Shown: positions 1,415-50,966 of the stretch, piece after piece | Layout: each line of letters starts with the position of its first letter | Position numbering within the stretch: position 1 is the first letter of the stretch | Assembly: GCF_963583255.1 (NCBI RefSeq) | Contig: NC_084805.1 | Coordinates: 10,346,827-10,410,826, forward strand | DNA from: Pyrus communis | Lineage: Eukaryota; Streptophyta; Magnoliopsida; Rosales; Rosaceae | Reading direction: 5' to 3' | DNA: 64,000 bases | Made by a program: the position numbers and the translations under genes | The notes under the pieces: generated by a model | Told to the model about the DNA's origin: nothing | The model's database searches: none | What the model saw: only the letters and a program-made list of their open reading frames with translations

Positions 1415-1415
1415 C

Positions 1416-3371
1416 TCTCCTACTTCGGTTAGAGAGGTTCGTTCTTTTCTTGGTCATGCAGGATTCTATAGACGATTTATCAAGGACTTTTCCAAGATTG
1501 CACAACCCCTATGCCGCCTCCTCCAAAAAGATGTGTCTTTTGAGTTCAACGAGGCATGCGAGAAGTCATTCAAGCATCTCAAAGAGCTCCTAACCACGGC
1601 ACCCATCATAACTCCCCCGGATTGGTCCATTCCATTTGAATTGATGTGTGATGCCTCAGATTATGCACTTGGGGCTGTTTTGGGTCAAAGGAAAAATAAA
1701 CAGTCACATGTTATTTATTATGCTTCCCGCACTTTAAATGATGCTCAATTGAATTATTCTACAACCGAAAAAGAACTCTTGGCGGTTGTATTTGCTTTAG
1801 ATAAGTTTAGATCATATCTTATTGGCACTAAAGTAATTGTTTTCACTGACCATGCAGCCTTGAAGTATATTTTCACCAAAAAGGAGGCCAAACCAAGGCT
1901 CATTCGTTGGATGCTCCTACTTCAAGAGTTCGATATTGAAATTAGGGACAAGAAAGGTTGTGAAAACGTGGTGGCTGACCACTTGAGTAGATTGGTGCGT
2001 GAAGAAGAATCCCTCCCCATTTCTGAGACGTTTCCAGATGAACAACTTCTGTCCATTGAGGTAAGTACCCCTTGGTATGCCGATTTGGTCAATTTCTTGG
2101 TGACTAAGCAAGTTCCTAACACCCTAAGCAAGGTCCAACGTGATAAATTGATACATGATGCAAGATTTTATGTGTGGGATGATCCATATCTATGGAAATA
2201 TTGCCCAGATCAGATTATTAGAAGATGTGTGCCAACTTCTGATTTTAACTCAATTCTAGCATTTTGTCATTCTTATGCATGTGGAGGCCATTTTGGTACC
2301 CAAAGGACAGCTCGTAAAGTGTTAGAATCTGGTTTTTATTGGCCTACATTGTTCAAAGATGCTAGAATGTTTTGCTTAACATGTGATAGATGTCAAAGAA
2401 CAGGTTCTATTGGTGCAAAAGACCAAATGCCGCAAACACCCATCTTCAATGTTGAAATCTTTGATGTTTGGGGTATTGATTTCATGGGTCCTTTTCCTTC
2501 TTCATTTGGTTTCACTTATATTTTTCTTGCGGTTGATTATGTTTCTAAATGGGTAGAAGCAAAAGCTACCCGTACTAACGATTCTAGAGTGGTTTCAGAT
2601 TTCATCAAGACTAACATTTTCTCTAGATTTGGGATGCCGCGGCTATTTATAAGTGATGGAGGTTCACATTTCTGCAATAGGACCATTGAGGCACTCTTCA
2701 AGAAGTACAATGTCAAGCATAAGGTTTCAACACCTTATCACCCACAAACAAGTGGCCAAGCCGAAGTATCAAATAGAGAGGTCAAGCAAATCTTGGAGAA
2801 GACCGTGGGGCCTAACCAGAAGGATTGGAGCATGCGTTTAGACGATGCACTATGGGCATATCGCACTGCCTACAAAACACCCCTAGGGATGTCTCCATTT
2901 CGGCTAGTTTATGGAAAACCTTGTCACTTACCCGTGGAGCTAGAGCATAAGGCACATTGGGCCATCAAAACGTTCAATTTGGACTTAGATGCTGCTGGAA
3001 TGCATCGGAAGCTCCAATTGAATGAGCTTGAGGAACTAAGGAATGAAGCCTACGAGAATGCCCGCATTTACAAGGAAAAGACGAAGGCGTTTCATGACAA
3101 GATGATTAGGGGCAAAACCTTCACAATTGGGCAGAAAGTTTTACTTTTTAATTCTCGTCTACGTTTATTTCCCGGAAAGTTACGTTCTAAATGGATTGGA
3201 CCTTTTGTTGTTACTAATGTTTTTCCACATGGTGCAGTTCAAGTCCAAAGCTTAAGGAATGGGGTGGAATTCAAGGTCAACGGACATAGATTGAAGCCAT
3301 ACTATGAGAATGCCGTGGGGCAGGTTGTGGAGGAGATCTCACTCCATGCCGTGGGCACCAATGGTGCCTGA
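1416..3371 (+). CDS. pol: Pol polyprotein fragment: RT C-terminus, RNase H, integrase
   Basis: The open frame of 651 codons has no start of its own because LTR Q replaces everything upstream. Residues 1-45 are the end of the RT (motif [15 protein letters not shown]). RNase H follows, with candidate catalytic residues D79 ([10 protein letters not shown]), E120 (EKELLAVV) and D145 (FTDHAALK), then VADHLSR. The integrase has an HHCC zinc region ([11 protein letters not shown] to CLTCDRCQ) and a complete catalytic triad D355, D414, E450, which is a D-x35-E spacing. A GPF-type C-terminal motif (KWIGPFVV) lies near residue 592. No stop or frameshift interrupts it, so the catalytic parts look intact even though the gene is split. 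The strong match to plant Ty3/gypsy pol makes the assignment firm. The Athila affinity comes from the tRNA-Asp primer site of its relatives. Confidence 0.95.
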
Positions 3372-3430
3372 ACGTGTTCTTCGTCCGGCTGCAAGACGTT
3401 AAAGAAAGCGCTACTTGGGAGGCAACCCAT
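3372..3430 (+). other. Conserved post-pol segment
   Basis: Directly after the pol stop comes a block containing TTCTTCGTCCGGCTGCAAG and then CTACTTGGGAGGCAACCCA. The same block, nearly unchanged, occurs in non-autonomous elements A, C and N, where it follows a 14-codon gag remnant instead of pol. Conservation outside any reading frame suggests a function at the RNA level, such as packaging, stability or dimerisation. That role is inference. Confidence 0.7.
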
Positions 3431-4465
3431 GCCATTCAACAAAGGAAGACCTAGAAAGCACTCCAATTCCAGATTTGCGTTCCTAAACCCTTCTCTTTGT
3501 TGATTCTTTCTAATCTGCCTATTTAGTTGTTTTACTTGCTGTTTGTGTGTTTCTTTGTGTGATTCTATGCTTAAAACATTGAGGACAATGTTTGATTTAA
3601 GTGTGGGGGGGTAACTAAGTGTTTTTCATGCAAATTCGTGGGATTTTATCACCCATTATTTCAAAACTTGTTCCTTGCTGTTTTTAAGTGTTTTTAAGCA
3701 GTTTTGGTGTGTTTTAGTATGTTTTGAAGTAAAAATCCGAAAATCAAAGAAAAATTTGAAAAATTTGTTTTAAAAAACCCAAAAAAGAATTGTTTTTGTG
3801 TGTTTGTTTGTGTCTTAGGGTACCTTCCAACACAATGATGAGGATTTGGTTTTTAAATACATGGCTGTTAAAGAGAGTGATTAACATGGATGAAAGTTTG
3901 ATTTACTCTATGTTTATGCTTGGTTGTGGTTATAACTTATGAATTCACATGCAATCATAAAAGAAAAAAAATCAGTTTTTGTAACATGCTTGAAGGAAGG
4001 AACTCAAATTAGCGCTACAACCTTGTGAGACTTGAACCTAAACGTTTATTTGGAGAGTTAAAATCTGTGCATTCTTTGTTTTCTAAAATCGTTGCATGAT
4101 CTCATTATTCTTTGCTTGGTTGCTACTTAGACGGCGTTTCATCATTTAGTTCCAAACACTAGAAGTCATGCCCATTTCATTCAAAGCATGGTATTGATTA
4201 GCATAACACATTTTCAAGATGAAGTTGTGTAGTGACCACCACTTTAGCCAAAAAGCCGTGTGCCCTACTCCATTATATGTTTAGGTGTTAACCCCATTGA
4301 GCCTTGTTTGGCCTTTTCTTTGTTAACCCACATTACCCTCACCTAGCCTAGATTAGGACTATCCATACCCTCGTTCTTAAAGTATAGTAAGCATGATTCA
4401 AATGGAATTCCTTTATGGCAGAAACCAAGTGTGGGGGAAGTAGAAAGAAAAGAAAAGAAAAATTC

Positions 4466-4499
<34 letters not shown>

Positions 4500-5282
4500 T
4501 GAAAAGAGTTGAACAACATGAGAAAAAGAGTTCCAAGGTGTTGTTTGTTGAAGAAATGGTCCAAAAAGTTGAATTCGGCCCCAAAAAGTTGTTTAAAGTC
4601 TTCCCCTTGTGTTTTTAAGTTAATTTTTGCAAACTAAGTGAATTCTAAGTCTTAATTTCATTACTTTGCTTACTAATGCTTGAAGTAACGTTTGTTTTCC
4701 CTATCCTTTCTTTGTTAACCAATACCCCAAGCCCCGTTGCAACCCTTAAACTTCTATCTTGAGTGTTATGTGTTTCAATTTGTTGAGTTTGAATTTGGTA
4801 TGAGCATATGGTGTCACTGGTTCTCGCATCTAAGTAGTAGCATTCCATTCATGAGATCATATCTAAACATGCCTATTAACTCCGGAAATTGCGTTCTTTG
4901 TGATACATATATGTGAGCATTCGTTTTTATATCTACATCAATTCTCTCACATATGACTAGTATAGGGTGTGTAGTTAGAAAATCTGAGTGAAAATAGAGT
5001 GCAAATCTATTAAGGATAGAAGGAATTCTCTAAGGCATGTTACTACATTCAAAACATTGTTTTAATTGGTTAATTGTGAACTAGTAAGTAGTGACTATGA
5101 TTAAGCATGTGCTTAAGTGTTAAATTGACTCAAATCTGTGGGAATGATAATCTTTAACATGTCATGTGCATTGGAAATCCCTGAGGCAAACGTTGGAAGG
5201 TTTAGATTATGTTTGTTTGTTTTGTCTTGTTTTATTTCTTTGGTTTGCTCGAGGACTAGCAAAAGCTAAGTGTGGGGGAATT
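3431..5282 (+). other. 3' UTR of M with three polypurine-tract-like motifs
   Basis: There is no coding signal here. It contains three copies of AAGTGTGGGGG, at 3599-3611, 4427-4440 and 5268-5280, about 0.83 kb apart. Only the last adjoins the LTR (5283) and must be the functional PPT. A long A-tract lies at about 4470-4497, beside the middle copy. The layout is the same in N, B, F, G and H. Confidence 0.8.
5268..5282 (+). promoter_or_regulatory. Polypurine tract of M
   Basis: The purine-rich stretch AAGTGTGGGGGAA abuts the 3' LTR start TGATAGG at 5283. This is the expected site of plus-strand DNA priming during reverse transcription. Confidence 0.85.
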
Positions 5283-7349
5283 TGATAGGAGCATTTTTAT
5301 GCGACTTAATTGGCTTGTTCTCATGCATTTATGTTGTTTTTCCTTAGTTAGTTTAAGTGTTTAAAGTCATTTTCGTGCAATTTCAGGTTTTAGTGTCAAA
5401 GTATGCAAAAAGAAGCAATTTGGAGCATTCTAGAGCATTTTTGGGCCAAGATTGGAAAGTGCAAGCATGGAGGCATGAGGATGGACGAATTTGAAGGCTT
5501 GAATTCAGTTAGGGAGCTGCAAGGGGGCCTAAAAAAAACCTTATTTCTGGAAGGCTTTATCTATTCACACATGGTGCCTAATTTCTGTATTGGAAGAACA
5601 AGCCGTCCTAGCTTGTCTCCTAGCCATCCTAGCTTGTCACTAGCCGTCCTATCTTGTCTCCTAGCCGTCCTAGCTTGTCACTAGCCGTCCTATCTTGTCT
5701 CCTAGCCGTCCTAGCTTGTCACTAGCCGTCCTAGCTTGTCTCCTAGCCGTCCTAGCTTGTCACTAGCCGTCCTAGCTTGTCTCCTAGCCGTCCTACCTTG
5801 TCTCCTAGCCGTCACTAGCCGTCCTACCTTGTCTCCTAGCCGTCCTATCTTGTCTCCTAGCCGTCCTATCTTGTCTCCTACCTTGTCCAAGCTACACACA
5901 TATATCCTTTAAGTGTTTCATGTATAGAATTTCTGGTACAAAAAACCTTTTGGTTTCAACTAAGTTCAAAACCTTTCCTAGCCCTATAAATAAGGCTTTG
6001 CAGCAAGGCACTTGGGGGATCACTCATTCACCCAATTTTCGTCCATTCATCTAGCCACACCACTCTACACATCCTAAAATCCTAGAAACACAATTCCAGC
6101 CAAACACTACACCTTGCCGTGCCTATCCTCCATCCAATTCCATAATCCCTGATCCTAAAACACATCCCAACCATCCCATCCACCTTTGTGCCGTAGCAAG
6201 GAGAAAGAAGGAAAGACTCTTGGATGCTCAAGCTTCGTCGTTGGTGCATTCTAGTTGTAATTCGTTTTATGATTTCAATGTTTAATTTATTTTCCTTTCA
6301 TTTTGCTATGAACATGAGTGGCTAAACCCCTATTGGTTAGGGGTGATTTCGAAGCCATAACTATGTGTGCAAGTTGATTTGATAAATTCCAGTTATGAGT
6401 TCTTGAATCGTGAATGCAATTGGCTTAACTGTGCGAGTAATAACGTATTTGTGTTTGTTAATTAGGGGTCGACACTTAATTGGCTTGCATGAATATGATG
6501 CTAGAATATAAGTTTGTTTCACATAATTGTCACACACTTATATTCACAAGTAGTGAAGGTTGCTAGTCACAATCGCGTTAAGTTCAATTCCTAGCATAAG
6601 TGTCATGATGTCATAGTCACAAGTGCTTTGTCAATGCTTATAGTTTTCATTGAACGTAATGATCTTTGATTGTATCTTTATTATGATGTCATGTAAGGAA
6701 CTTTTGAAGAATACTTTGGGTTGTCGTATGATGTCATCCAATTCAATAACACAAGGAAAACTTGAGAATTAACTAGTGATGTCACGGTTAATTTGGGGCA
6801 TTGTCATTCATAATTCTATGAAGGAATAACTGGAAATCGAGTCATTTGCATACTTGTCATGTGTGGAGAAAGAACCCCTAACTAGTCCATCATCCATTAA
6901 AAACCCCAAAAACGTTCCAAAATCAGTTTTACTTTGCAATCTGTTTTCTCAACTTTAATTTCGTCCAAATCAAATCCCCCTTTACTTTGAAGTCTCAATT
7001 TAGTTAGAAATTGTTTTGGTTCATGTTTTTAAGTGTTTTGAGTCAAGTTTTCAACCAATTTCGTCCAAATTAGTGTAGGTGCTCAAAACTGCCCAGAAAG
7101 TGGTTTTTAGGCAGTTTTGAGTCTTCTATTTGCTGTTTTGAGTTTTTGTTTTGTTTTAGTGTTTTAACTTTGGTTTTTCATTCTTTGAGTCCAAATTAGT
7201 GTTTTTAACTTTGTTTTGGAGTTCTTAGGTCAGTTTTCAAGAGTTTAGCAATCCCTCCTAATCCCCGGTTTTGAACGATCCCTACTTACATACTTTGCTA
7301 CAATTGTCAGAAGAGGGTTTAATTTGTGTGCTTAATATATTTCGCATCA
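5283..7349 (+). mobile_element. 3' LTR of M
   Basis: This 2067 bp LTR begins TGATAGGAGC and ends TTCGCATCA. A TATA box (TATAAATA) lies at 5986-5993. The U3 contains a 20/21 bp minisatellite (5605-5890). Downstream, the polyadenylation and U5 part is shared with other LTRs of the group, but the U3 is diverged. A GC-rich hairpin (CCCCTATTGGTTAGGGG, about 6327-6343) lies in the transcribed part. Confidence 0.9.
5605..5890 (+). repeat. Minisatellite of alternating 20 and 21 bp units in U3 of M
   Basis: About 13 head-to-tail units resemble CTAGCCGTCCTAGCTTGTC and end alternately in A or TC, giving a higher-order period near 41 bp. Unit sequence varies at one position (agc, atc or acc). No other LTR in the window carries it. 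The apparent reverse-strand ORF across it is a by-product of the repeat. Confidence 0.9.
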
Positions 7350-8465: not shown

Positions 8466-9122
8466 ATGGCAAACTCATCGAACCTTAGCTTGGAATTGAG
8501 CCTTAGCAGTGATACGGGCGCGCCGCGTCAAGGTAACGTATGGCGCCCTTCTTTCTTATCTTCTAACGGTCTTCTTACAGGTGAAGACTCCGTGATGCAG
8601 GACGCCACAACAGCTACAATAGTAGGTAGGAACCTCCTCACTCCAAAAGATAGTAGGCTGCTGTCAGGACGGTCCGATGAGTTGGCCGTTCAAGAGTCCC
8701 TCGCACTTAGTGTTCAGTGTGCGAGTTCTGTGTCCAACATGGGCCAACGCCTGCTTGCCCGCTCCCGTCAGGTGGAATCATTGATGGCAGAGGTGGAAAG
8801 TCTCAAGCAGGAGATCCAGCAGCTTAAGTACGAGAATAGAAGTTTGCACGTGCTTGCCAACAACTATTCGACGGGCATGAAGAGGAAGCTTGATGAGCTG
8901 CAAGAGTCTGAAGGTCGGATTCACAGTGACCGTCAAAGGTTTTCGTCTTTCCTCCAGAGGCACCTTTTTCTTGGCTCATCCAGCGCTTGGCCAAGTATTG
9001 AGGCCTGGAATGCTCTAGCTCCGATGCCTCCCGCTCCGATGCCTTCCACTCCGATGCCTTCCGCTTCAAAGCCTTCCGCTTCGACGCCTCGTAGTGGGGC
9101 TTCACGTAAACAACCTTTGTGA
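8466..9122 (+). CDS. Antisense cassette protein with EAR motif and leucine zipper (copy A), 218 aa
   Basis: The gene lies antisense to its host retroelement. I chose the ATG at 8466 because all five copies align from MANSSNLSLELSLSSD. An in-frame non-ATG codon at 8397 is not needed. Residues 7-13 are LSLELSL, an LxLxL EAR-type repression motif. Residues 24-90 are conserved (WRPSFLSSN, LLTPKDSRLLSGRSDEL) without a known fold. Residues 95-165 form a coiled coil with leucines at 106, 113, 120 and 127, V110 and I117 at 'a' positions and N124 as the buried polar 'a' residue. The tail is five Pro-rich pentads of APMPS type. Copy-specific changes are G54 and L169. No DNA-binding domain is evident. 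Function is unknown; a dimeric corepressor adaptor is my inference. Confidence 0.75.
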   Translation: MANSSNLSLELSLSSDTGAPRQGNVWRPSFLSSNGLLTGEDSVMQDATTATIVGRNLLTPKDSRLLSGRSDELAVQESLALSVQCASSVSNMGQRLLARSRQVESLMAEVESLKQEIQQLKYENRSLHVLANNYSTGMKRKLDELQESEGRIHSDRQRFSSFLQRHLFLGSSSAWPSIEAWNALAPMPPAPMPSTPMPSASKPSASTPRSGASRKQPL

Positions 9123-17801: not shown

Positions 17802-20305
17802 TGATGCGAGAATTATACGCACACAAATTAAACCCTCTTTTCGTCAAATTGTAGTATATGTATAAGTAGGGATCGTTCTAGACCGGGGATTAGGACGGAT
17901 TGTTAACCACTTGGATTTGACTCAAAAACGTAAAATAACAATATGAAATACTAACTTAGACTCAAAGAATGCAAAACTAAGCTTTAAAACACTAAGACAA
18001 ACCAAAAGACTCAAAACAACATAAACACACTCAAATCTGCCTAAAAACCACTTTCTGGGCAGATTTGAGCACAAACACAAATTTGGACGAATTTATGTAA
18101 TAACTTGACTCAAGAACGTAAAAACACAATATAAAACACTAAACTAACTCAAAGAATGTAAAACTAAATACTTAAAACATTAAAACAAACCAAAAGACTC
18201 AAACATCACCCAAAACACTCAAAACTGCCTTAAAATCACTTTCTGGGCAGTTTTGAGCACTTTGGTGAATTTGGACGAAATTGGGAAATAAATTGAATCA
18301 AAACACTTAGAAACATAAACTAAGACACTTTCTAACTAAATTGGACAATAAAGTAAAGGGGGATTGAGGTTTATACGAAATTAAATTAAATTGCACAGAT
18401 TGTAAATTAAAGCAAAATGTAAATGTGAATGTGTGATAGAATTGAATGGAATTGAAATGAATGAATGCTAGCTAAGGGGTTCATCTTCACATATGTTACA
18501 CTTGCATAATAAAATGATTTCCAATTGCATTTCAATAAACCATGAAACTCAACACCCCGGGTTAACCGTGATGCACTAATTAACCTTCAAATCTTCCTAA
18601 CGTTATTGAATTGGATGGGTTAGCGCATACAACAATTCAAAACATTCCCCACAAGTCCTCAACATGAATGCATAGAAGAGGTACAAGCAAGAATCATTAC
18701 GCTCTATGAAAATTATAAGTGTTGACGAGGCATTCGTTACTATGGAATACGCATGAAACTTATGCCAAGAATTTGTTTAACGCGATTGTTTATAAGCAAC
18801 CTCCACTACTTGTGAATATAAGTTCATAACTATTAGGTGAAACTCACTTATATTCTAGCGTCATATTCATGCATGAAAATTAAGTGTGCACTCTCAATGA
18901 ACATACATAAATAAGTTATCAATCAAACAGTTAAACGAATTGAATCCACAACTTATGAAACGCAATTAGAAGTATTCAAATCAAAATGCAAGCATAAACA
19001 TATATTTGAATCACCCCCTAACCAAGGGGGGTTTTAGTTCCTCATGGTACAAAACAAAGAGAATCAAAGAAACACCTAAACATTCCAACAACTCAAACTT
19101 GAATTGTATGAACGTTTAGGCCCTCTTATCTTCCATTCCTCATTCGTACAAAACAAAGAGTATTGAAATTAAACGTTGAAATCAAAGAAACACCTAAACA
19201 TTCCAACAACTCAAACTTGAATTGTATGAACGTTTAGGCACTCTTCTCTTCCTCTTCGTTGTAGCACAAGGTCTAGGGATAGTTTGATGGTGTGAATGGT
19301 TTGGGGAGTGGTGGAAATGGAAGGATGGTGTTTGGATTGTAAGGGAGAGCACGGCACAAAGATGGTTTGATGGTCTACATTTCTGCAATGGATGAGTTTA
19401 TGAATGGAATGGATGGACTTTGTGAAGGGCACGGCCCTAAGGGACCAATTTCTGTTGTGAAATGAATTGTGAATGAATGAGTGTGAATGAATGAGTATTT
19501 ATAGGTGAAATGGGGGGAACATGACAGCTAGGTTGCATGTGCACATGTTGGTTGAATGATTATGAGTGCATGTGGCTGAAATAGCATGTGGAATGGCTGG
19601 AAATGCAAGGAGAAGGCATGTGCACGGTTTTGGGAGAGAATGGGAGTGCAAGTGGCTGAAATGTTAGAGGAACAAGTGCATGTGGCTGCATTGTGGTGCA
19701 ATGATGGAGGAACAATCTGAAAATGCAAGGTATGGCTGGAATGATTGTGTTTGTTTGAATGTGCATGTGATTAAATTAAAGGATGCAAAGTAAATAAATA
19801 ATGAATGCATGTGTTGAATTATGAAGATGCATGTGCAATGAAGTGGAATGACAATCTGAAATGGGATAGGTACCCACGGCAATGATGATTTCTGGTGGTG
19901 TTTTGGGTGCATGTGGAATGAATGATTTCTTGGTGAGTGGATGCATGTGTTGATTAAAGGGGGAATGCAAAGGAAAAGCTAGAAATGCATGTGGAGTGGC
20001 TGCAAGGTGAATGAATAATGAAATGGGAAAGCATGTGCAAGGTTTTGGTGTGAATGATTGAATGTGCATGTGGCTGCAATGGAGGAGGAATCCTTCAATT
20101 TCGTCCATCCTCTTGGCTCCAAGCATATGATATCCATTCCAATCTCTAATTTGCTCCAAAAGGCTCCAAAAGGCATCCTTTTGCATACTTTGCCCTTAGA
20201 ACCTGAAAACACACAAAAGAAGCATAAAGGACTAAAATAACTAAAGAAACATAACGTAAATGCACGAGAACAAGCCATTTAAGTCGCATGAATATGCTCC
20301 TATCA
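17802..20305 (-). mobile_element. 5' LTR of C
   Basis: 2504 bp, complete. It closely resembles solo LTR I in reverse over its whole length, including the U3 CACATGCA region and the hairpin pair (19075 and 19193). Confidence 0.92.
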
Positions 20306-21955
20306 CAAAACAAAACAACAAAAGAACACGGAACTAGACAAAACGAACAAAACACAACCTACACCTTCCAACAATCGTCTCACGGATTTCCAATGCTCAT
20401 GACAAGTTAAAAATCATTATTCCCACAGATTTTAGCCATCTTTACACTTAAGTACATTCTTAATCATAGTCACCACATACTAGTTCACATTTAAGCATTT
20501 AAAACCATTTCGAATGTAGTTATATGTGAGAGATTGATGTAAACATGAAAGACATCTCACATATGTTATAACAAAGAAAGCATTTTCTGGATTTACGATA
20601 ATGACATGAATATGATCTCATGAATGGAATGCTACTACTTAGAATAAGAACCAGTGTTTCCATAAGCTCATATCAACTCCAAACTCCACATATTGAACAC
20701 ATAACGATCAAGATAGAAGCATAAGGGTTGAAACGGGGCTAAAGGTGTTTGGCTAACAAAGAAAGGATAGGGAAAACAAACGTTCTTTAAGCAATAGTGA
20801 GCAAAGTATTGAATTAGGCACTTAGAATTCCCTTTAGAACGCAGAAGTCAACTTTGAACACCCAAGGGGAAGTCACAAAACTTAGGGCCATATTCAAACT
20901 TTTTGGGCCCTTTCTTCAACAATCACACTTGTGAGTCCATTCTCACTTATTTTCACTCTTTTTTTTTTTTTTCTTTCTTTTCTTCTTCTTTTTCTCACAT
21001 TTTTTTTCTTTTTCCCGTGCCTCCTTTAAGACTTAGGCACATACATACACACAAAAATCCCTTCCCCCACACTTATTTTCTGCAACATATTAATCAAAAG
21101 GAATTCATTATCCGTCATGCTTACTATGCTTCAAGAACAAGGGTACGGATGGTCCTAATCTAGGCTAGGTAAGGGTTGATGTGGTTAGCAAAGAAAATAT
21201 GCTAAACGAGGCTCAACGGGGTTAAAACTAATAACAAATACGAAATATGGGAAGTAAGGCTATTTGGCTATGGTGGCAACAACACAACTTCATCGTGATA
21301 TATATTATGCAATTCAATGTCATGCTTTGAATGAAACGGATATAAGTTCTAGCATTTAGTTCTATCATGATACAATTGCATTCTAAGTAGCAACCAACCA
21401 AGGAATAATGAGATCATGCAACAACTTTAGAAAACAAAGAATCACAGAAAATAACTCTCCAAAGAAGGTAATGGCTCGAGTCTCACAGGGTTGTAGCGTT
21501 TGTTTGAGTTCCTTCCTTCAAGCATGTTACAAAAACGAATTTTTCTTTTATGATTGCATGTGAAGTCATACATTATAACCATAACCAAGCATATACCAAG
21601 AGTAATTCAAACTTTTCTCTATGTTCATAACTCTTTTTAACAGTCATGCAATTACAAACCAAATCCTTATCATTTTGTTGGAAGGTACCCTAAGACACAA
21701 ACACACAAAAATGACTCAAAACACTCTTTTTAGGCTTTTTAAAACATGTTTTTCAAATTTTTATGTGATTTTTATGGGTGATAAAATCCCACGAATTTGC
21801 ATTAAATATACTTAGTTACCCCCCCCCCCCCCCCCCACACTTAAATCAAACATTGTCCTCAATGTTTTAAGCATAGATTCACACGAAACATAAGTAAACA
21901 CACAAAAAACACTTAAACATACTAAACATGGCAGAATGTAACTAACAAAGAGAAG
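20306..21955 (-). other. 3' UTR of unit B
   Basis: Non-coding. It contains the T-rich run near 20957-21013, the middle PPT-like motif (cccccacactta, about 21065-21075) and the third PPT-like motif expanded to 18 C (21819-21836). Confidence 0.8.
21819..21840 (-). repeat. Expanded poly-C/poly-G tract in a PPT-like motif
   Basis: 18 consecutive C here, against about 7 in F, G and H at the same place. On the element strand this is a G18 run. Confidence 0.9.
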
Positions 21956-22347
21956 AGTTTAGGGACGCAAATCTGGTTATGGAGTGTAAATTCCATCTTC
22001 TCTTTGTTGATTGCATTGAGGCTTGATCTTGATGATTCCACAGGCTTACTCTCGAACTGGTTGCCGCCCATCGTTGATTTTCCTTTGTGCTACTCTTGAT
22101 CTGGGCAGCAGGATTCTTTTGGTCTCCCCCGAAGGTCTGAGCTTACTCCTTTGGTCTGTTTCTTTGTTCAATCTTTCCAATTCGTATTGAAAAGGGTTGG
22201 AGGATAACTCAGCCTAAGTTTGTCTCCACATGCTTCAATGTATCATTTTCACTTGCCTTACTCGCTCCCCTTTGCAGAAGTGGTCCCTTCTCTGGAAGTG
22301 TATCAACCGTTGAAGATGACTCCTTGAGAGCAACGCTAGGTAAGCAA

Positions 22348-22686
22348 TCAGGAATAGATTACAGGCAGTTGGCTCCAGATCGGAAGACTGACTCCAAGTG
22401 CCGGCTGATTGCTTCTTTTACTTTGCCATGCGATTAAGAACAAGGACAAAGAAAAAGACAGGGAAAAAGCATGATATGAGATACTTTTGCTTTTGACCTT
22501 GATGATATGAGATACCTTTGCTTTTGAAGAAGCGGTGAATGAATCAGCATACTTCAATCCGCCGTTTCCTCCTGGGTCATCTGTACTCTAGGCATCTGGT
22601 ATCATCTTTGGGGAAGAAGAAAGAATTGAGTATTTCGAAAGGCTTTGCTGGGAGTGCGCCCTTAGAGGTGAGGGAGAGTTGGGCAT
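22348..22686 (-). pseudogene. Small divergent cassette ORF (copy B), broken
   Basis: Same ORF as at 7573-7911, but a TAG at 22588-22590 replaces the Trp codon after MIPDA, giving a truncated product. The sequence after the stop remains open to the usual end. Confidence 0.6.
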
Positions 22687-22974
22687 TTTCTTCAGGTTTG
22701 CCTTGCCATATATAGAGATAATATCAAGTGGTGGTACTATTCTTTTACCCTTGTCGACAAATGTCTCTTCGATATCTGAACGACGCCTCTTCGATTTCTG
22801 AGCAGGCGCCCCTTCGATTTCTGAACGACGCCCCTTTGCTTTCTGAACGACACGTAGTAGTGCGGATGCGACGTCTTTTGACAAAGCTGCACGCGTTTTC
22901 TGAAAAGCAGAGAAAGCATCGCCGAACTTTGCGCTTGTCGGCTAAAGATGTGTAGTTGCGATGATGGCCTCCAC

Positions 22975-24970: not shown

Positions 24971-27565
24971 TGATAGGAGCATATTCATGCGACTTAAATG
25001 GCTTGTTCTCGTGCATTTACGTTATGTTTCTTTAGTTATTTTAGTACTTTAAGCTATTTTCGTGTGTTTGTAGGTCCAAAGGGCTAAAGGAGCAAAAAGA
25101 TGCATTTTGGAGATTTTTGGAGCACTTTTGGGCTAAGGATGGATAGCTTATGCTTGGAGCCAAAGTGTTGGACGAAATTGAAGACCTAATTGGAGCCAAA
25201 GTGTTGGAACCTTGTTCTCTTTAGTTTTAGGACATTTAAACCTTTCCTAATCCCAATCATGCCATGCATAACACACATCCATTCTAACACATTGTCATTG
25301 CACATGCATTTCCTTCATTAATTAACCCACATGCTCCCATTACTTATCATAACCACATATCATATCACTTATCACTTATCACTTATTATCATCACTTTAG
25401 CTTTAATTCACATGCACATTCACTCACCACAAACATTTCACATGCTTTCCTATTCAATTAAATCAGCCACATGCATTCATCATAATAACCTAGCTGTCAT
25501 TCCACTTCATTGCACATGCATCTTCAAATAAATCAGATTTCCATCATATTCACATGCATTCCATCTTTTAATTTAATCACATGCACATTCACCTTGCTTT
25601 GCAGAAAATCCACTTCATAACACATGCATCTTGGCAGATTTCACATGCACTCATGCACATTCACCTTAATCATTCACATAGCTTTAATCCACATGCATTT
25701 CCACCTAGATTTCCACCTCACAACCACCAGAAATCAACCAAAACCGTGCATTCCCTTTCATTTCTGTCAAAGCACATGCATTTCCACCCTTTAATCACAT
25801 GCACAAACAGCACATGCATCTCCCATCACCATTTCAGATTTCCACCAAGTTCCTAGCTGTCATGTTCCCCCCATTTCACCTATAAATACTCATTCATTCA
25901 TTCTCATTCATACACAATTCACTCCTCCATTTCAGAAATTCATCCATTGTACATACCACAACACAAACCCTTCCATTTTCAGAATGTAGACCATCACAAA
26001 CTGCCCTTGGTGCCGTGGCCTTGAGGCACCACTCCCTTACAATCCAAACACCATCCTTCCATATTCCACCACTCCCCAAACCATTCACACCATCAAACTA
26101 TCCCTAGACCTTGTGCTACAACGAAGAGGAAGAGAAGAGTGCCTAAACGTTCATACAATTCAAGTTTGAGTTGTTGGAATGTTTAGGTGTTTCTTTGATT
26201 TCAATGTTTAATTTCAATGGTCTTTGTTTTGTACGAATGAGGAATGGAAGATAAGAGGGCCTAAACGTTCATACAATTCAAGTTTGAGTTGTTGGAATGT
26301 TTAGGTGTTTCTTTGATTCTCTTTGTTTTGTACCATGAGGAACTAAACCCCCCTTGGTTAGGGGGTGATTCGAATATATGTTTATGCTTGCATTTTGATT
26401 TGAATACTTCTAATTGCGTTTCATAAGTTGTGGATTCAATTTGTTTAACCGTTTGATTGATAACTTATTTATGTATGTTTATTGAGAATGCGCGCTTAAT
26501 TTTCATGCATGAATATGACGCTAGAATATAAGTAAGTTTCACCTAATCGTTATGAACTTATATTCACAAGTAGTGGAGGTTGCTTATAAACAATCGCGTT
26601 AAACAAATTCTTGGCATAAGTTTCATGCAATCCATAGTAACGAATGCCTCGTCAACACTTATAATTTTCATAGAGCGTAATGATTCTTGCTTGTATCTCT
26701 TCTATGCATTCATGTTGAGGACTTGTGGGGAATGTTTTGAATTGTTGTATGCGCTAACCCATCCAATTCAATAACGTTAGGAAGATTTGAAGGTTAATTA
26801 GTGCATCACGGTTAACCCGGGGTGTTGAGTTTCATGGTTTATTGAAATGCAATTGGAAATCATTTTATTATGCAAGTATAACATGTATGGAGATGAACCC
26901 CTTAACCATTCTATCATCCATTCATTCTATTCCATCAAATTCATCTTTACTATCTGTTTTAATTTGAATCTGTACATTTAATTTAATTTCGTCCAAATCT
27001 CAATCCCCCTTTACTTTATTGTCTAATTTAGTTAGAAAGTGTCTTAGTTTGTGTTTATGAGTGTTTTGATTCATTTTATTTCCCAATTTCGTCCAAATTC
27101 ACCAAAGTGCTCAAAACTGCCCAGAAAGTGATTTTAAGGCAGTTTTGAGTGTTTTGGGTGATGTTTGAGTCTTTTGGTTTGTTTTAATGTTTTAAGTGTT
27201 TAGTTTTACATTCTTTGAGTTAGTTTAGTGTTTTATATTGTGTTTTTACGTTCTTGAGTCAAGTTATTACTTAATTTCGTCCAAATTTGTGTTTGTGCTC
27301 AAATCTGCCCAGAAAGTGGTTTTTAGGCAGATTTGAGTGTGTTTGTGTTGTTTTGAGTCTTTTGGTTTGTCTTAGTGTTTTAAAGTTTAGTTTTGCATTC
27401 TTTGAGTCTAGTATAGTGTTTCATATTGTTATTTTACGTTTTTGAGTCAAATCCAAGTGGTTAACAATCCCTCCTAATCCCCGGTCCAGAACGATCCCTA
27501 CTTGCATACTTACTACAATTTGACAAAAAGAGGGTTTAATTTGTGTGCGTATAAATCTCGCATCA
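24971..27565 (+). mobile_element. 5' LTR of N
   Basis: 2595 bp from TGATAGGAGC to CTCGCATCA. TATA at 25880-25890, hairpins at 26142-26187 and 26260-26305, and a short TATCACT microsatellite near 25366-25396. Confidence 0.95.
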
Positions 27566-27570
27566 AATTT

Positions 27571-27588
27571 TGGCGCCGTTGCCGGGGA
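27571..27588 (+). promoter_or_regulatory. Primer binding site, tRNA-Asp type (element N)
   Basis: TGGCGCCGTTGCCGGGGA, a perfect complement of the plant tRNA-Asp 3' end, 5 nt after the LTR. Confidence 0.96.
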
Positions 27589-27684
27589 TTAGAAAATTTG
27601 CTAATCCCTTGGATTGTTTTATTTTTGTTTGTTGTTATTCCAGATTCTTAATCTTGTTTTGTTTCTTGTTTTAGGTACTAGTTT

Positions 27685-27729
27685 ATGACTCGGAGTTCTC
27701 ATCCGATTCGTGAACATATCCTGGAGTGA
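27685..27729 (+). pseudogene. gag remnant, 14 codons (copy N)
   Basis: MTRSSHPIREHILE then TGA. Upstream is a pyrimidine-rich stretch ending TTTTAG, like a 3' splice site, also present before the gag ATG of E. Confidence 0.75.
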
Positions 27730-27789
27730 TTGGGTTCTTCGTCCGGCTGCAAGACGTAAAAGAAAGCGCTACTTGGGAGGCAACTCAAT
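27729..27789 (+). other. Post-pol conserved segment (copy N)
   Basis: The arms are ATTGGGTT and AACTCAAT, and the one changed base still pairs as G-U. A poly-A tract and the cassette follow. Confidence 0.65.
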
Positions 27790-27863
27790 GATTTGATTAA
27801 AAAAAAAAAAAAAAAAAATTTCATTTATTAAATAAAATACTAAACATGGAGAAAGGTGGTGCT

Positions 27864-28550
27864 TCACAAAGGTTGTTTACGTGAAGCCCCACTACGAGGC
27901 GTCGAAGCAGAAGGCTTTGAAGCAGAAGGCATTGGAGCGGAAGGCATTGGAGCGGAAGGCATTGGAGCGGAAGGCATCGGAGCGGAAGGCATCGGAGCTA
28001 GAGCATTCCAGGCCTCAATACTTGGCCAAACGCTGGATGAGCCAGGAAAAAGGTGCCTCTGGAGGAAAGACGAAAACCTTTGACGGTCACTGTGGATCCG
28101 ACCTTCAGACTCTTGCAGCTCATCAAGCTTCCTCTTCATGCCCGTCGAATAGTTGTTGGCAAGCACGTGCAAACTTCTATTCTCGTACTTAAGCTGCTGG
28201 ATCTCTTGCTTAAGACTTTCCACCTCTGCCATCAATGATTCCACCTGACGGGAGCGGGCAAGCAGGCGTTGGCCCATGTTGGACACAGAACTCGCACACT
28301 GAACACTAAGTGCGAGGGACTCTTGAACGGCCAACTCATCGGACCGTCCTGACAGCAGCCTACTATCTTTTGGAGTGAGGAGGTTCCTAGCTACTATTGT
28401 AGCTGTTGTGGCGTCCTGCATCACGGAGTCTTCACCTGTAAGAAGACCGTTAGAAGATAAGAAAGAAGGGCGCCATACGTTACCTTGACGCGGCACGCCC
28501 GTATCACTGCTAAGGCTCAATTCCAAGCTAAGGTTCGATGAGTTTGCCAT
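27864..28550 (-). CDS. Antisense cassette protein with EAR motif and leucine zipper (copy N), 228 aa
   Basis: Intact and antisense to N. The EAR motif, the conserved middle block and the zipper match copy A. Differences include V18 in TGVPRQ and a tail of seven pentads, mostly perfect APMPS units. The promoter lies at 28551-28930 on the minus strand. Its TATA is changed (cttaataaaaaagcc on the plus strand near 28661-28675), which may weaken transcription of this copy. Confidence 0.75.
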   Translation of the reverse strand: MANSSNLSLELSLSSDTGVPRQGNVWRPSFLSSNGLLTGEDSVMQDATTATIVARNLLTPKDSRLLSGRSDELAVQESLALSVQCASSVSNMGQRLLARSRQVESLMAEVESLKQEIQQLKYENRSLHVLANNYSTGMKRKLDELQESEGRIHSDRQRFSSFLQRHLFPGSSSVWPSIEAWNALAPMPSAPMPSAPMPSAPMPSAPMPSASKPSASTPRSGASRKQPL

Positions 28551-29120
28551 TTTTCAAAGGTGTTCAAAGATAAGGGTTGATGGAGTAAATTTTCAAAGGG
28601 TCGGAGTCGATTTTCAAGAATGGGAATTCTTCAGAGTGTGTTTGTTGTGGTGATCGATAGCTTAATAAAAAAGCCAAAGCGACGCGTCCACCGATTCAAA
28701 AAGCCGGAATTTCCGGCGTAATTTAGGCAACGCTTTCTCGGCTTTTCAGAAGACGCGTTCAACTTTGTCAAAAGATTTCTTCTTTTCAGACAACACGTGG
28801 AGGCCATCACCGCAACTACACATCTTTAGCCGACAAGCGCAAAGTTCGGCGACACTTTCGCTGCTTTTCAGAAAACGCGTGCAGCTTTGTCAAAAGGAGC
28901 CGCATCCGCACTACTACGTGTCGTTCAGAAAGCAAAGGGGCGCCTGCTCAGAAATCGAAGAGGCTTCATTCAGAAATCGAAGAGGCGCCACTATTTCAAA
29001 AAGCCGGATTTGCGGGATCAAAACGTTTGTCGACAAGGGTAAAAGAACAATACCACCACTTGATATTATCTCTATATATGTCGACCTTCGTCTTTTATGG
29101 CAAGGCAAACCTGAAGAAAA

Positions 29121-29462
29121 ATGCCCAACTCTCCCTCACCTCTGAGGGCGCACTCCCAGCAAAGCCTTTCGAAAGACTCAATTCTTTCTTCTTCCCCAAA
29201 GATGATACCAGATGCCTGGAGTACATATGACCCAGGAGGAAACAGCACAACAAATACATGTGCTGATTCATTCACCGCTTCTTCAAAAGCAAAGGTATCT
29301 CATATCATAAAGGTCAAAAGCAAAAGTATCTCATATCATGCTCTTTCCCTGTCTTTTTCTTTGTCTTTGTTCTTACTCGCATGGCAAAGTAAAAGAAGCA
29401 ATCAGCCGGCACTTGGAGTCAGTCTTCCGATCTGGAGCCAACTGCCTGGAATCTATTCCTGA
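29121..29462 (+). CDS. Small divergent cassette ORF (copy N), 113 aa, unknown function
   Basis: In the sense orientation of N. It is like the copy at 7573-7911, with a different stretch at residues 41-48 (NSTTNTCA instead of NGGLKCA). The hydrophobic segment is at residues 73-88. The minus-35 to start region holds CTATATATG at about 29073-29081. Confidence 0.4.
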   Translation: MPNSPSPLRAHSQQSLSKDSILSSSPKMIPDAWSTYDPGGNSTTNTCADSFTASSKAKVSHIIKVKSKSISYHALSLSFSLSLFLLAWQSKRSNQPALGVSLPIWSQLPGIYS

Positions 29463-29829
29463 TTGCTTACCTAGCGTTGCTCTCGAGTAGTCATCTTCAA
29501 CGGTTGATACACTTCCGGAGAAGGGACCACTTCTGCAAAGGGGAGCGAGTAAGGCAAGTGAAAATGATACATTGAAGCATGTGGAGACAAACATAGGCTG
29601 AGTTATCCTCCAACCCTTTTCAATACGAATTGGAAAGATTGAACAAAGAAACAGACCAAAGGGGTAAGCTCAGACCTTCGGGGAAGACCAAAAGAATCCT
29701 GCTGCCCAATTCAACAGTAGCACAAAGGAAAATCAATGATGGGCGGAAACCAATTCAAGAGTAAGCCTGTGGAGTCACTATGATCAAAGCCTCAATGCAA
29801 TTACCAAGGAGAAGAGGGAATTTACACTC

Positions 29830-31687
29830 CATAACCAGATTTGCGTCCCTAAACTCTTCTCTTTGTTAATTACATTCTGCCATGTTTAGTATGTTTAAAT
29901 TGCTTTTTGTGTGTTTACTTATGCTTAAAACATTGAGGACAATGTTTGATTTAAGTGTGGGGGGGGTAACTAAGTTTATTTAATGCAAATTCGTGGGATT
30001 TTATCACCCATAACTTCAAATGTTGTTCCTTGCTGTTTTAAGGTGTTTTTAAGTTGTTTTAGAGTGTTTTAGTATGTTTTGTTTTTATAACTCCGAAAAT
30101 CACATAAAAATTTGAAAAACATGTTTTAAAAAGCCTAAAAAGAGTGTTTTGAGTCGTTTTTGTGTGTTTGTGTCTTAGGGTACCTTCCAACACAATGATA
30201 AGGATTTGGTTTGTAATTGCATGACGGTTAAAAAGAGTTATAAACATAGAGAAAAGTTTGATTTACTCTTGGTATATGCTTGGATATGGTTATAATGTAT
30301 GACTTCACATGCAATCATAAAAGAAAAATTCGTTTTTGTAACATGCTTGAAGGAAGGAACTCAAACAAACGCTACATCCCTGTGAGACTCGAGCCATTAC
30401 TTTCTTTGGAGAGTTTTTTTTCTGCGATTCTTTGTTTTCTAAAGTTGTTGCATGATCTCATTATTTCTTGCTTGGTTGCTACTTAGAATGCAATTGTATC
30501 ATGATAGAACTAAATGCTAGAACTTATATCCGTTTCATTCAAAGCATGACATTGAGTTGCATAACATATATCAAGATGAAGTTGTGTAGTTGCCACCATA
30601 GCCAAATAGCCTTACTTCCCATATTTCGTATATATTAGTTTTAACCTCGTTGAGCCTCGTTTAGCCTATTTTCTTTGCTAACCACATCACCCCTTACCTA
30701 GCCTAGAGTAGGACTTTCCTATACCCTTGTTCTTGAAGTATAGTGAGCATGACTTAAATGAATTCCTTTTGATTAATATGTTGCGGAAAATAAGTGTGGG
30801 GGAAGGGATTTTTGTGTGTATGTATGTGCCTAAGTCTTAAAGGAGGCACGGGAAAAAGAAAAAAAAAATGTGAGAAAAAGAAGAAGAAAAGAAAGAAAAA
30901 GAGTGAAAATAAGTGAGAATGGACTCACAAGTGTGATTGTTGAAGAAAGGGCCCAAAAAGTTTGAATATGGCCCTAAGTTTTGTGTGACTTCCCCTTGGG
31001 TGTTCAAAGTTGATTTCTGCGTTCTAAAGGGAATTCTAAGTGCCTAATTCAATACTTTGCTCACTATTGCTTAAAGAACATTTGTTTTCCCTATCCTTTC
31101 TTTGTTAGCCAAACACCTTTAGCCCCGTTTCAACCCTTATGCTTCTATCTTGATCGTTATGTGTTCAATAATGTGGAGTTTGGAATTGATATGAGCTTAT
31201 GGAATCACTAGTTCTCGTTCTAAGTAGTAGCATTCAATTCATGAGATCATATTCATGTCATTGTCGTAAATCCAGAAAATGCTTTCTTTGATATAACATA
31301 TGTGAGTGTTAGAATTCATATTTACATCAATCTTCTCACATATAACTTAGTGTAGGGAGTGTAGTCAGAAAATCTGTGTGAAAAACGAGTGCATATCTTG
31401 TAAGGATTTGAGCAAATTCTCTAAGGCATGTTACTACATTCAAAACATGGTTTTAAATGCTTAATTGTGAAATAATATGTGGTGACTATGATTAAGAATG
31501 TACTTAAGTGTGAAGATGACTAAAATCTATGGGACTAATGATTTTTAACTTGTCATGTGCATTGGAAATCCTTGAGACGATTGTTGGAAGGTTTAGGTTG
31601 TGTTTTTCTTGTTCAGTGTCGTTTTGTTTTTGATTTCTTTTGTTTTGTTTTGCTCGAGGACTAGCAAAAGATAAGTGTGGGGGTATT
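29830..31687 (+). other. 3' UTR and PPT of N
   Basis: Non-coding. PPT-like motifs lie at 29953-29966, 30792-30805 and 31673-31687, about 0.85 kb apart; the last is the functional PPT. A purine-rich run of A and GAAA lies near 30854-30903. Confidence 0.85.
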
Positions 31688-34386
31688 TGATAGGAGCATA
31701 TTCATGCGACTTAAATGGCTTGTTCTCGTGCATTTACGTTATGTTTCTTTAGTTATTTTAGTACTTTAAGCTATTTTCGTGTGTTTGTAGGTCCAAAGGG
31801 CTAAAGGAGCAAAAAGATGCATTTTGGAGATTTTTGGAGCACTTTTGGGCTAAGGATGGATAGCTTATGCTTGGAGCCAAAGTGTTGGACGAAATTGAAG
31901 ACCTAATTGGAGCCAAAGTGTTGGAACCTTGTTCTCTTTAGTTTTAGGACATTTAAACCTTTCCTAATCCCAATCATGCCATGCATAACACACATCCATT
32001 CTAACACATTGTCATTGCACATGCATTTCCTTCATTAATTAACCCACATGCTCCCATTACTTATCATAACCACATATCATATCACTTATCACTTATCACT
32101 TATCACTTATTATCATCACTTTATCATATCACTTATCACTTATCACTTATCATAACCACTTATCACATCATAACCACATATCATATCACTTATCACTTAT
32201 CACTTATCATCATCACTTTAGCTTTAATTCACATGCACATTCACTCACCACAAACATTTCACATGCTTTCCTATTCAATTAAATCAGCCACATGCATTCA
32301 TCATAATAACCTAGCTGTCATTCCACTTCATTGCACATGCATCTTCAAATAAATCAGATTTCCATCATATTCACATGCATTCCATCTTTTAATTTAATCA
32401 CATGCACATTCACCTTGCTTTGCAGAAAATCCACTTCATAACACATGCATCTTGGCAGATTTCACATGCACTCATGCACATTCACCTTAATCATTCACAT
32501 AGCTTTAATCCACATGCATTTCCACCTAGATTTCAACCTCACAACCACCAGAAATCAACCAAAACCGTGCATTCCCTTTCATTTCTGTCAAAGCACATGC
32601 ATTTCCACCCTTTAATCACATGCACAAACAGCACATGCATCTCCCATCACCATTTCAGATTTCCACCAAGTTCCTAGCTGTCATGTTCCCCCCATTTCAC
32701 CTATAAATACTCATTCATTCATTCTCATTCATACACAATTCACTCCTCCATTTCAGAAATTCATCCATTGTACATACCACAACACAAACCCTTCCATTTT
32801 CAGAATGTAGACCATCACAAACTGCCCTTGGTGCCGTGGCCTTGAGGCACCACTCCCTTACAATCCAAACACCATCCTTCCATATTCCACCACTCCCCAA
32901 ACCATTCACACCATCAAACTATCCCTAGACCTTGTGCTACAACGAAGAGGAAGAGAAGAGTGCCTAAACGTTCATACAATTCAAGTTTGAGTTGTTGGAA
33001 TGTTTAGGTGTTTCTTTGATTTCAATGTTTAATTTCAATGCTCTTTGTTTTGTACGAATGAGGAATGGAAGATAAGAGGGCCTAAACGTTCATACAATTC
33101 AAGTTTGAGTTGTTGGAATGTTTAGGTGTTTCTTTGATTCTCTTTGTTTTGTACCATGAGGAACTAAACCCCCCTTGGTTAGGGGGTGATTCGAATATAT
33201 GTTTATGCTTGCATTTTGATTTGAATACTTCTAATTGCGTTTCATAAGTTGTGGATTCAATTTGTTTAACCGTTTGATTGATAACTTATTTATGTATGTT
33301 TATTGAGAATGCGCGCTTAATTTTCATGCATGAATATGACGCTAGAATATAAGTAAGTTTCACCTAATCGTTATGAACTTATATTCACAAGTAGTGGAGG
33401 TTGCTTATAAACAATCGCGTTAAACAAATTCTTGGCATAAGTTTCATGCAATCCATAGTAACGAATGCCTCGTCAACACTTATAATTTTCATAGAGCGTA
33501 ATGATTCTTGCTTGTATCTCTTCTATGCATTCATGTTGAGGACTTGTGGGGAATGTTTTGAATTGTTGTATGCGCTAACCCATCCAATTCAATAACGTTA
33601 GGAAGATTTGAAGGTTAATTAGTGCATCACGGTTAACCCGGGGTGTTGAGTTTCATGGTTTATTGAAATGCAATTGGAAATCATTTTATTATGCAAGTAT
33701 AACATGTATGGAGATGAACCCCTTAACCATTCTATCATCCATTCATTCTATTCCATCAAATTCATCTTTACTATCTGTTTTAATTTGAATCTGTACATTT
33801 AATTTAATTTCGTCCAAATCTCAATCCCCCTTTACTTTATTGTCTAATTTAGTTAGAAAGTGTCTTAGTTTGTGTTTATGAGTGTTTTGATTCATTTTAT
33901 TTCCCAATTTCGTCCAAATTCACCAAAGTGCTCAAAACTGCCCAGAAAGTGATTTTAAGGCAGTTTTGAGTGTTTTGGGTGATGTTTGAGTCTTTTGGTT
34001 TGTTTTAATGTTTTAAGTGTTTAGTTTTACATTCTTTGAGTTAGTTTAGTGTTTTATATTGTGTTTTTACGTTCTTGAGTCAAGTTATTACTTAATTTCG
34101 TCCAAATTTGTGTTTGTGCTCAAATCTGCCCAGAAAGTGGTTTTTAGGCAGATTTGAGTGTGTTTGTGTTGTTTTGAGTCTTTTGGTTTGTCTTAGTGTT
34201 TTAAAGTTTAGTTTTGCATTCTTTGAGTCTAGTATAGTGTTTCATATTGTTATTTTACGTTTTTGAGTCAAATCCAAGTGGTTAACAATCCCTCCTAATC
34301 CCCGGTCCAGAACGATCCCTACTTGCATACTTACTACAATTTGACAAAAAGAGGGTTTAATTTGTGTGCGTATAAATCTCGCATCA
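31688..34386 (+). mobile_element. 3' LTR of N
   Basis: 2699 bp, ending CGCATCA. It is longer than the 5' LTR because the TATCACT/CATAACC microsatellite (about 32085-32215) is expanded. Confidence 0.95.
32085..32215 (+). repeat. TATCACT/TCATATCAC microsatellite expanded in one LTR
   Basis: Seven-base units tatcact with interspersed cataaccac. The matching site in the 5' LTR is about 104 bp shorter. Reverse-strand versions (ATAAGTG) occur at about 15284-15365, 40742-40866, 46566-46688 and 53755-53878. Confidence 0.85.
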
Positions 34387-36652: not shown

Positions 36653-36747
36653 TTAGCAACTTTGCTAATCCCTTGGATTGTTATTTTCGTTTTTCTTATT
36701 AGATCAGATTCTTATGTTATTTTGTTTCTTGTTTTAGGTACTTGTTT

Positions 36748-43030: not shown

Positions 43031-43419
43031 AATCTGGTTATGGAGTGTAAATTCCCTCTTCTCGTTGGTAATTGCATTGAGGCTTTGATCATAGTGACTC
43101 CACAGGCATACTCTTGAACCGGGCTGCATGATTCTTTTGGTCTCCTCCACTTGTTGATTTTCCTTTGTGCTACTGGGCTGGAGGATTCTTTTGGTCTTCC
43201 CCGAAGGTCTGAGCTTACCCCTTTGGTCTGTTTCTTTGTTCAATCTTTCCAATTCGTATTGAAAAGGGTTGGAGGATAACTCAGCCTATGTTTGTCTCCA
43301 CATGCTTCAATGTATCATTTTCACTTGCCTTACTCGCTCCCCTTTGCAGAAGTGGTCCCTTCTCCGGAAATGTTTCAACCGTTGAAGATGACTACTCGAG
43401 AGCAACGCTAGGTAAGCAA

Positions 43420-43758
43420 TCAGGAATAGATTCCAGGCAGTTGGCTCCAGATCGGAAGACTGACTCCAAGTGTCGGCTGATTGCTTCTTTTACTTTGCCA
43501 TGCGAGTAAGAACAAGGACAAAGAAAAAGACAGGGAAAGAGCATGATATGAGATACTTTTGCTTTTGACCTTGATGATATGAGATACCTTTGCTTTTGAA
43601 GAAGCGGTGAATGAATCAGCATACTTCAATCCGCCGTTTCCTCCTGGGTCATCTGTACTCCAGGCATCTGGTATCATCTTTGGGGAAGAAGAAGAATTAG
43701 AGTAATTCGAAAGGCTTTGTTGGGAGTGCGCCCTCAGAGGTGAGGGAGAGTTGGGCAT
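43420..43758 (-). CDS. Small divergent cassette ORF (copy F), 112 aa, unknown function
   Basis: Intact. Differences from copy A include NYSNSS for KYSILS and DDPGG for YDRGG. The hydrophobic segment is unchanged. The longer reading frame upstream to 44145 crosses into G and is accidental. Confidence 0.4.
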   Translation of the reverse strand: MPNSPSPLRAHSQQSLSNYSNSSSSPKMIPDAWSTDDPGGNGGLKYADSFTASSKAKVSHIIKVKSKSISYHALSLSFSLSLFLLAWQSKRSNQPTLGVSLPIWSQLPGIYS

Positions 43759-47817: not shown

Positions 47818-47851
<34 letters not shown>

Positions 47852-50869: not shown

Positions 50870-50884
50870 AGCTCCATCATTCTG

Positions 50885-50957
50885 CCATGTTTTTTTTTTT
50901 TTTTTTTTTTTTTCATAAATTTAGTATCTTTTTTTTTTTTTTTTTTTTTTTTTTTCA
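50885..50957. repeat. Two poly-T tracts between convergent ORFs in H
   Basis: Runs of more than 20 T at about 50889-50912 and 50930-50955, separated by cataaatttagtatc. They look like a duplication of the boundary tract, which is single in the other elements. Confidence 0.85.
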
Positions 50958-50966
50958 TAAATAAAA

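Follow-up and report, generated by a model that had tools for sequence, protein, structure and literature searches.

A conserved antisense ORF in pear LTR retrotransposons that lack recognisable gag and pol domains

Here, we found that a family of LTR retrotransposons of pear (Pyrus communis) without recognisable gag and pol domains carries an antisense ORF and, as judged by codon comparisons among its copies, this ORF is conserved as a protein by purifying selection beyond what chance would allow. We consider it highly probable that the ORF is a coding gene under selection, either in this family or in a donor family, and it is the only ORF in these elements for which protein selection was shown. 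The window, which is the whole stretch of DNA analysed (64,000 nucleotides), constitutes a nest of LTR elements formed by one family and its kin. The coordinates of the relevant features are summarized in Table 1.

Table 1. Positions of antisense ORFs, carrier elements and related features in the window
Feature	Position	Strand	Remarks
Antisense ORF, copy A	8466-9122	+	218 codons, intact; orientation judged
Antisense ORF, copy B	16781-17497	+	238 codons, intact; element without its 3' part
Antisense ORF, copy C	27864-28550	-	228 codons, intact
Antisense ORF, copy E	50189-50869	+	226 codons, intact
Antisense ORF, copy D	60328-60999	+	223 codons, intact
Element C	24971-34386	+	LTRs 24971-27566 and 31688-34386; target-site duplication GAGCT; complete, uninterrupted
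Element E	45298-54235	-	LTRs 45298-47052 and 52480-54235; target-site duplication GGAAT; complete, uninterrupted
Element D	44100-64000, on to 64476 beyond the window	-	Target-site duplication GCCTC; split by E and another LTR
Family fragments without ORF region	20306-22974 and 41159-44099		
Primer-binding site of C	27571-27590	+	Motif also after the 5' LTR in A, B and E; one difference in D
Sense remnant ORF of E	50967-52301	-	By eye similar to a gag/protease linker; no Pfam match above cut-off; protein not conserved
Sense remnant ORF of D	60979-62205	-	No Pfam match; protein not conserved
ORF block with upstream stretch in element C	27788-29794	-	Spans internal positions 222-2228; five relatives have the site empty
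Pol part (RNase H, integrase) of related element without ORF block	1533-3371	+	
Empty site for ORF block in that pol-bearing relative	3376-3505	+	

The initial annotation had described the five ORFs as open from the same ATG and always antisense to their elements. Both statements apply to all five copies: each ORF starts with ATG, contains no internal stop and runs opposite to its element, which lies on the minus strand for copies A, B, D and E and on the plus strand for copy C. The strand of the elements was deduced from the order of LTRs and internal parts, from the primer-binding sites and, for three elements, from the target-site duplications. The common C-terminal motif claimed for all copies was found as SG(A/T)SRKQPL in four of the five ORFs, but copy E ends with the variant SGASSKCPL. 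Persistence of the ORF in an element that had lost its 3' part could be reproduced. This element, previously called C, is that of our copy B, and its remnant consists only of internal positions 1-1510 of the reference copy and one LTR piece. When 294 kb around the window (G000:C3:10326827-10620826) were screened by tblastn, ten ORF loci were detected, seven of which are intact. Two of the intact ORFs are located outside the window (L010:4313-5014, L020:1230-1901) and the other five are the window copies. The three broken loci involve a truncation at an LTR junction, a stop after 93 codons and a frameshift in the tail. Thus, the concern that most other copies might be broken does not apply to this region.

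The carriers had been called non-autonomous and this description was corroborated, since no gag or pol domains were found by Pfam in the sense ORFs checked from elements A, D and E and from one fragment. Elements C and E comprise 9416 bp and 8938 bp, respectively, and elements A and B have lost their 3' parts. The family fragment at 41159-44099 resumes past element D and carries there the truncated ORF of locus L011. The primer-binding site of C is presumably complementary to plant tRNA-Asp. The LTR pairs differ by 2 mismatches in 1756 columns (E), 3 in 2636 (C) and 9 in 2141 (D), with gaps additional, and these three datable insertions are young.

Intact survival had been stressed in the initial annotation but, for young copies, is in itself no sign of function. 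The ORFs are indeed intact, but young copies often stay open by chance, and at the divergences observed here a neutral copy is free of stops with a probability of 0.10-0.23. Because the three datable insertions are young and neutral copies often stay open, openness alone constitutes weak evidence, and amino acid conservation is the stronger argument. The seven intact ORFs fall into two lineages, one with D and F and the other with A, B, C, E and L; here, F and L denote the copies outside the window. For the 168-codon core, between-lineage dN/dS ratios of 0.11-0.16 were calculated in all ten pairs (Fisher p 5e-9 to 7e-12). Within the lineages, the corresponding values were 0.15-0.47 for 11 pairs, three of which (A-C, A-E, B-C) were not significant at 0.05. 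As control, we used the sense remnant of the same elements and obtained ratios of 0.70 (D-E), 0.69 (D-F) and 1.07 (E-F). Neutral simulations yielded so few amino acid changes in none of 3000 runs for A-D, D-E and L-D and in 51 of 3000 runs for A-E. The proline-rich tail is looser (dN/dS 0.20-0.72 in nine of ten pairs, one undefined).

Related elements lacking the ORF are present in the same region. In three relatives that bear gag or pol parts, a 50-54-bp segment following the integrase joins the 3' region directly or after about 30 bases. In element C, 2,007 bp separate these two segments and the ORF block is situated in this interval. Over the 294 kb, the empty site was found in five relatives, and both edges together with the block were found in four copies. 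The heptamer CTCAATG is present at both block edges in C and may mark an insertion or a recombination. The block was thus either gained in the carrier family or lost in the empty-site relatives. Because the five relatives have the empty site past the integrase end, the idea that the block replaced pol was rejected. Judging from the reverse transcriptase of one of them (RVT_1, L009:7851-8558) and from presumable tRNA-Asp priming, the pol-bearing relatives may be Athila-like. RVT_1 was found by Pfam in such relatives, for instance at these L009 positions, and the carriers themselves do not contain a reverse transcriptase.

The ORF appears to behave as a movable module. The sense remnants of E and F are nearly identical (dS 0.017) and yet their ORFs belong to different lineages, with 29 synonymous differences in 114 sites. 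Elements A and D share 96-100% identity over a 700-column stretch about 0.6-1.3 kb upstream of the ORF, whereas the nearer columns are 70-96% identical and the dS of the ORF core is 0.29. Recombination between elements would be the simplest reading of both mosaics. The idea that F is a copy with foreign upstream sequence was dropped; another element interrupts F just before the ATG.

Three protein searches returned 1324, 56 and 1318 relatives, of which 120, 56 and 120 were listed (296 rows, some repeated). All source-named relatives among the matches listed come from Malus or Pyrus, with Pyrus providing the best of the named ones in the first search, and one apple cluster (P0103) has 2,492 members. 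For tree construction, 42 of 47 rows were used (five were too short). The tree, whose root is no more than a drawing aid, leaves 13 of 39 inner branches open and the placement of P0171 unsure; it has two well-supported sides of 16 and 26 rows, each containing apple and pear. Because both species occur on both sides, it is probable that the two gene lineages are older than the separation of apple and pear.

Among 55 longer relatives (56 less P0059, which has the same name as P0058; module queries from two of these proteins), the ORF or part of it is followed by TRP28-type modules in nine gene models (seven pear, two apple) and by a second coiled coil in six, all from pear. The order is constant, with the ORF always first. 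PF04195 reached 19.7 and 20.0 bits in P0158 and P0164 (cut-off 26.2) and was not found in P0165, P0168, P0170, P0171, P0175, P0176 and P0177. No TRP28 match was found in the 294 kb, and joins of ORF and TRP28 are known from gene models alone. Three other apple/pear models (P0162, P0169, P0173) have the ORF fused to host-like parts (YTH domain, carboxylesterase, terpene synthase) and may represent gene-model errors or chimeras. Eight of the 120 listed relatives (P0010-P0013, P0015, P0017, P0057, P0101) bear the names 'S ribonuclease' or 'S2-RNase' in the annotation of a pear hybrid; many of the remaining ones are proteins of apple labelled 'hypothetical' or 'unnamed'. No RNase match was found in the ORF by Pfam and therefore, the RNase names look like misannotation. 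For users of public pear gene sets, this means that relatives of the ORF are to be met under these names.

These data bear on the main rival explanation, according to which selection acted in ORF-bearing donor elements and the gag/pol-less copies, which would not depend on the ORF, acquired it recently through recombination (template switching). We regard this scenario as quite possible but less likely than not. The near-identical sense remnants of E and F with ORFs of two lineages agree with it and so do the gene models: as the ORF is joined there to TRP28-type or second coiled-coil modules, other carriers probably exist. However, no ORF-bearing pol element was detected in the 294 kb, where the pol-bearing relatives show the empty site, and most of the local gag/pol-less copies contain an intact ORF.

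The encoded protein had been said to match no nameable family and this was confirmed, since no Pfam family passed the cut-off. For PF04195, no match was obtained at E 1 in three window ORFs, nor was it found in the first member or among the 25 families listed for 20 members. ZapB, YabA, TSC22, Lebercilin and similar families stayed below the curated Pfam cut-offs and are typical of any coiled coil. FBF1, the best of these sub-cut-off matches (P0005; E 0.00045, 19.3 vs 45 bits), was rejected, and so was bZIP, for which only bZIP_2 appeared at E 0.61, far under the cut-off and with no recognisable basic region. Among PDB chains, there was no match better than E 0.18 and only generic coiled coils were seen; the N-terminal peptide gave no PDB match. 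An AlphaFold2 model based on 20 sequences predicted helices at residues 47-57 and 60-167 with disordered ends, at low confidence (mean pLDDT 67.5, pTM 0.32). A heptad-like hydrophobic pattern peaking at residues 89-130 was observed in all four members scored.

The N-terminus carries short motifs, which were counted in 74 distinct sequences drawn from 120 relatives after removal of those without usable anchor. [LIFV]xLx[LIV] occurred in 60 of the 74 N-termini (4.2 expected by shuffling), LxLxL in 35 (0.6 expected) and DLN[LIV] in 15 (0.3 expected); in reading these numbers, it should be considered that LxLxL is short and that the sequences are related. The LxLxL/DLNL pattern is retained in spite of the different N-terminal residues that flank it in the two main types. 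Motifs of the LxLxL/DLNL type are plant EAR repression motifs.

For the TATA box that the initial annotation had placed upstream of the ATG, no more than a loose match was obtained. A loose TATA-like word, TATAGAGC, is present at -115 to -122 in five of seven copies, but the strict TATAWAW box is absent within 1 kb upstream in six of the seven. AATAAA-like signals were found no more than 263 nt past the stop in all seven copies.

On the basis of these findings, we propose that a gag/pol-less family of pear LTR retrotransposons possesses, in this ORF, an antisense accessory gene that codes for a protein, and that the ORF belongs to a set of related apple/pear genes, some of which precede a TRP28-type gene in gene models. 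Its antisense mRNA would most likely originate from the upstream portion of the 2-kb block and give rise to a small protein. This protein might pair via its predicted long helix (residues 60-167), enter the nucleus and recruit a TOPLESS-type co-repressor through its N-terminal LxLxL/DLNL motif, so that the element or host silencing genes might be transcribed differently, to the benefit of the element. As a whole, the concept of an antisense accessory gene whose product is a coiled-coil regulator, active in the nucleus and equipped with an EAR-like arm, is the best explanation we can offer, and we would give it an even chance. For the nuclear regulator itself our confidence is likewise evenly divided, and co-repressor recruitment remains a tentative suggestion that may well be wrong. 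Among the features in favour of the concept, those shown by sequence analysis are the antisense position, the intact frames, selection, the N-terminal motif, the 2-kb block and the module order. The predicted helix with its heptad-like pattern, the AATAAA-like signals and the nuclear antisense protein of Grande (PMC7264820) also speak for it. Against it stand the five relatives with the empty site, which do without the block, the lack of a strict TATA box in six of seven copies, the shortness of LxLxL among related sequences, the low confidence of the model, the poor PDB matches and the three non-significant within-lineage pairs. A more far-reaching version appears unlikely to us: the gag/pol-less family would keep one selfish regulator, an antisense-encoded coiled coil that borrows TOPLESS via its EAR-like motif and thereby blunts host silencing or tunes a helper, and the ORF would stand first in a modular set of antisense genes (ORF plus TRP28 or second coiled coil) reshuffled between apple/pear retrotransposon lineages.

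Alternatively, the antisense RNA rather than the protein may matter, in that dsRNA formed with the genomic RNA tunes silencing, as discussed for such loci (PMC7264820). Antisense transcription has been published for Grande and Retand (same source), but an RNA function by itself would not lead one to expect constraint at the amino acid level, and we consider this option improbable. Even less can be said for the ORF being a captured host-gene fragment without function in the element, which we judge very improbable. The 2-kb block does look cleanly gained or lost, and CTCAATG is found at either edge, but the protein is constrained and no cellular source gene was recognised among the 296 listed rows (120 of 1324, 56 of 56, 120 of 1318). 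Least probable of all is that the copies are open only through their youth: nearly identical LTR pairs and the neutral stop-free probability would allow it, but it is contradicted by the dN/dS of the ORF as compared with the internal sense-remnant control and by the apple and pear relatives on both sides of the tree.

Our preferred reading, an antisense accessory gene, has precedents. Antisense ORFs that precede the 3' LTR have been described for Grande, RIRE2, Retand and PvRetro13 (PMC7264820, PMC11963269). The Grande gene23 protein is nuclear and its gene has its own promoter (PMC7264820). As in pear, the accessory genes of Grande (gene23), RIRE2 and PvRetro13 are antisense and precede the 3' LTR, but they sit in gag-pol elements; this comparison is by description only (PMC7264820). 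In Retand, the antisense TRP28 protein (Transposase_28, PF04195) is also encoded between the pol end and the 3' LTR, is present in all clusters but two of a survey and has been proposed to act in regulation (PMC11963269). A further point in common is that TRP28-type modules come after the pear ORF in the nine longer gene models mentioned above. In contrast, the pear protein lacks PF04195, its carriers lack gag and pol domains, and their pol-bearing relatives look Athila-like. The pear ORF shares with the plant antisense accessory ORFs (aORF-3R) the published position, antisense between the pol end and the 3' LTR as judged from its block, as well as multicopy occurrence with protein conservation (10 loci in 294 kb, dN/dS 0.11-0.16). 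HBZ of the animal retrovirus HTLV-1 has a zipper-type helix. It is a small antisense-encoded nuclear regulator (PMC11963269), but this is an analogy only, and the pear protein has no recognisable basic region. Sunflower Athila and Tekay elements carry accessory ORFs, and those of Athila, one of which is named ORF(-), have a Transposase_32-like or a transmembrane feature (PMC11728184), neither of which was found above the Pfam cut-off in the pear ORF. In the titles and abstract starts listed by our literature searches, we found no description of this protein family and no EAR motif in a retrotransposon-encoded antisense protein. The initial annotation had favoured a new system. Since antisense accessory ORFs have been published for Grande, RIRE2 and Retand, this term is too strong. 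Under our preferred reading as well as under the donor scenario, the pear ORF is a new protein type among the plant antisense accessory ORFs and not a categorically new system. The role of such genes in plant retrotransposons is an open question (PMC7264820, PMC11963269), and the pear family provides an internal control in its decaying sense ORF, relatives with the empty site as a comparison and a short motif that is open to test. If our reading is true, co-repressor recruitment by a retrotransposon would become directly testable.

The present family may be the pear counterpart of HODOR (KX869746), a high-copy LTR element that measures 9.2-9.7 kb and for which 232 full-length pear copies have been reported (PMC6901071). 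HODOR marks putative apple centromeres (PMC13334179) and has only short matches in Gillenia (PMC8558331). The similarity concerns the length of elements C and E and the occurrence in apple and pear (PMC6901071, PMC13334179). The excerpts of these two reports mention no antisense gene in HODOR.

Several observations concern the neighbouring elements. Two related elements (36742-39141 and L019:3960-6767) contain gag and a weak aspartic-protease match between their LTRs; reverse transcriptase and integrase domains were not found in them, and it is possible that they are gag-only partners. One pol-bearing relative (window 1415-7349 plus L009:7707-8711) is split by an element starting at window position 1414, and its 5' LTR end directly abuts the reverse transcriptase without gag. 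The LTR at 17801-20305 is shared by copy B, whose 5' LTR it forms, and by the fragment at 20306-22974, where it takes the place of the 3' LTR, which suggests recombination between adjacent elements. Finally, D is inserted at a GGCCTC site of a related element (window 44095-44099, 22970-22974), and a second element starts three bases further at the same site in a second relative. These two insertions, which fall within 3 bp of the same internal position some 250 bp ahead of the antisense ATG, may reflect a target-site preference.
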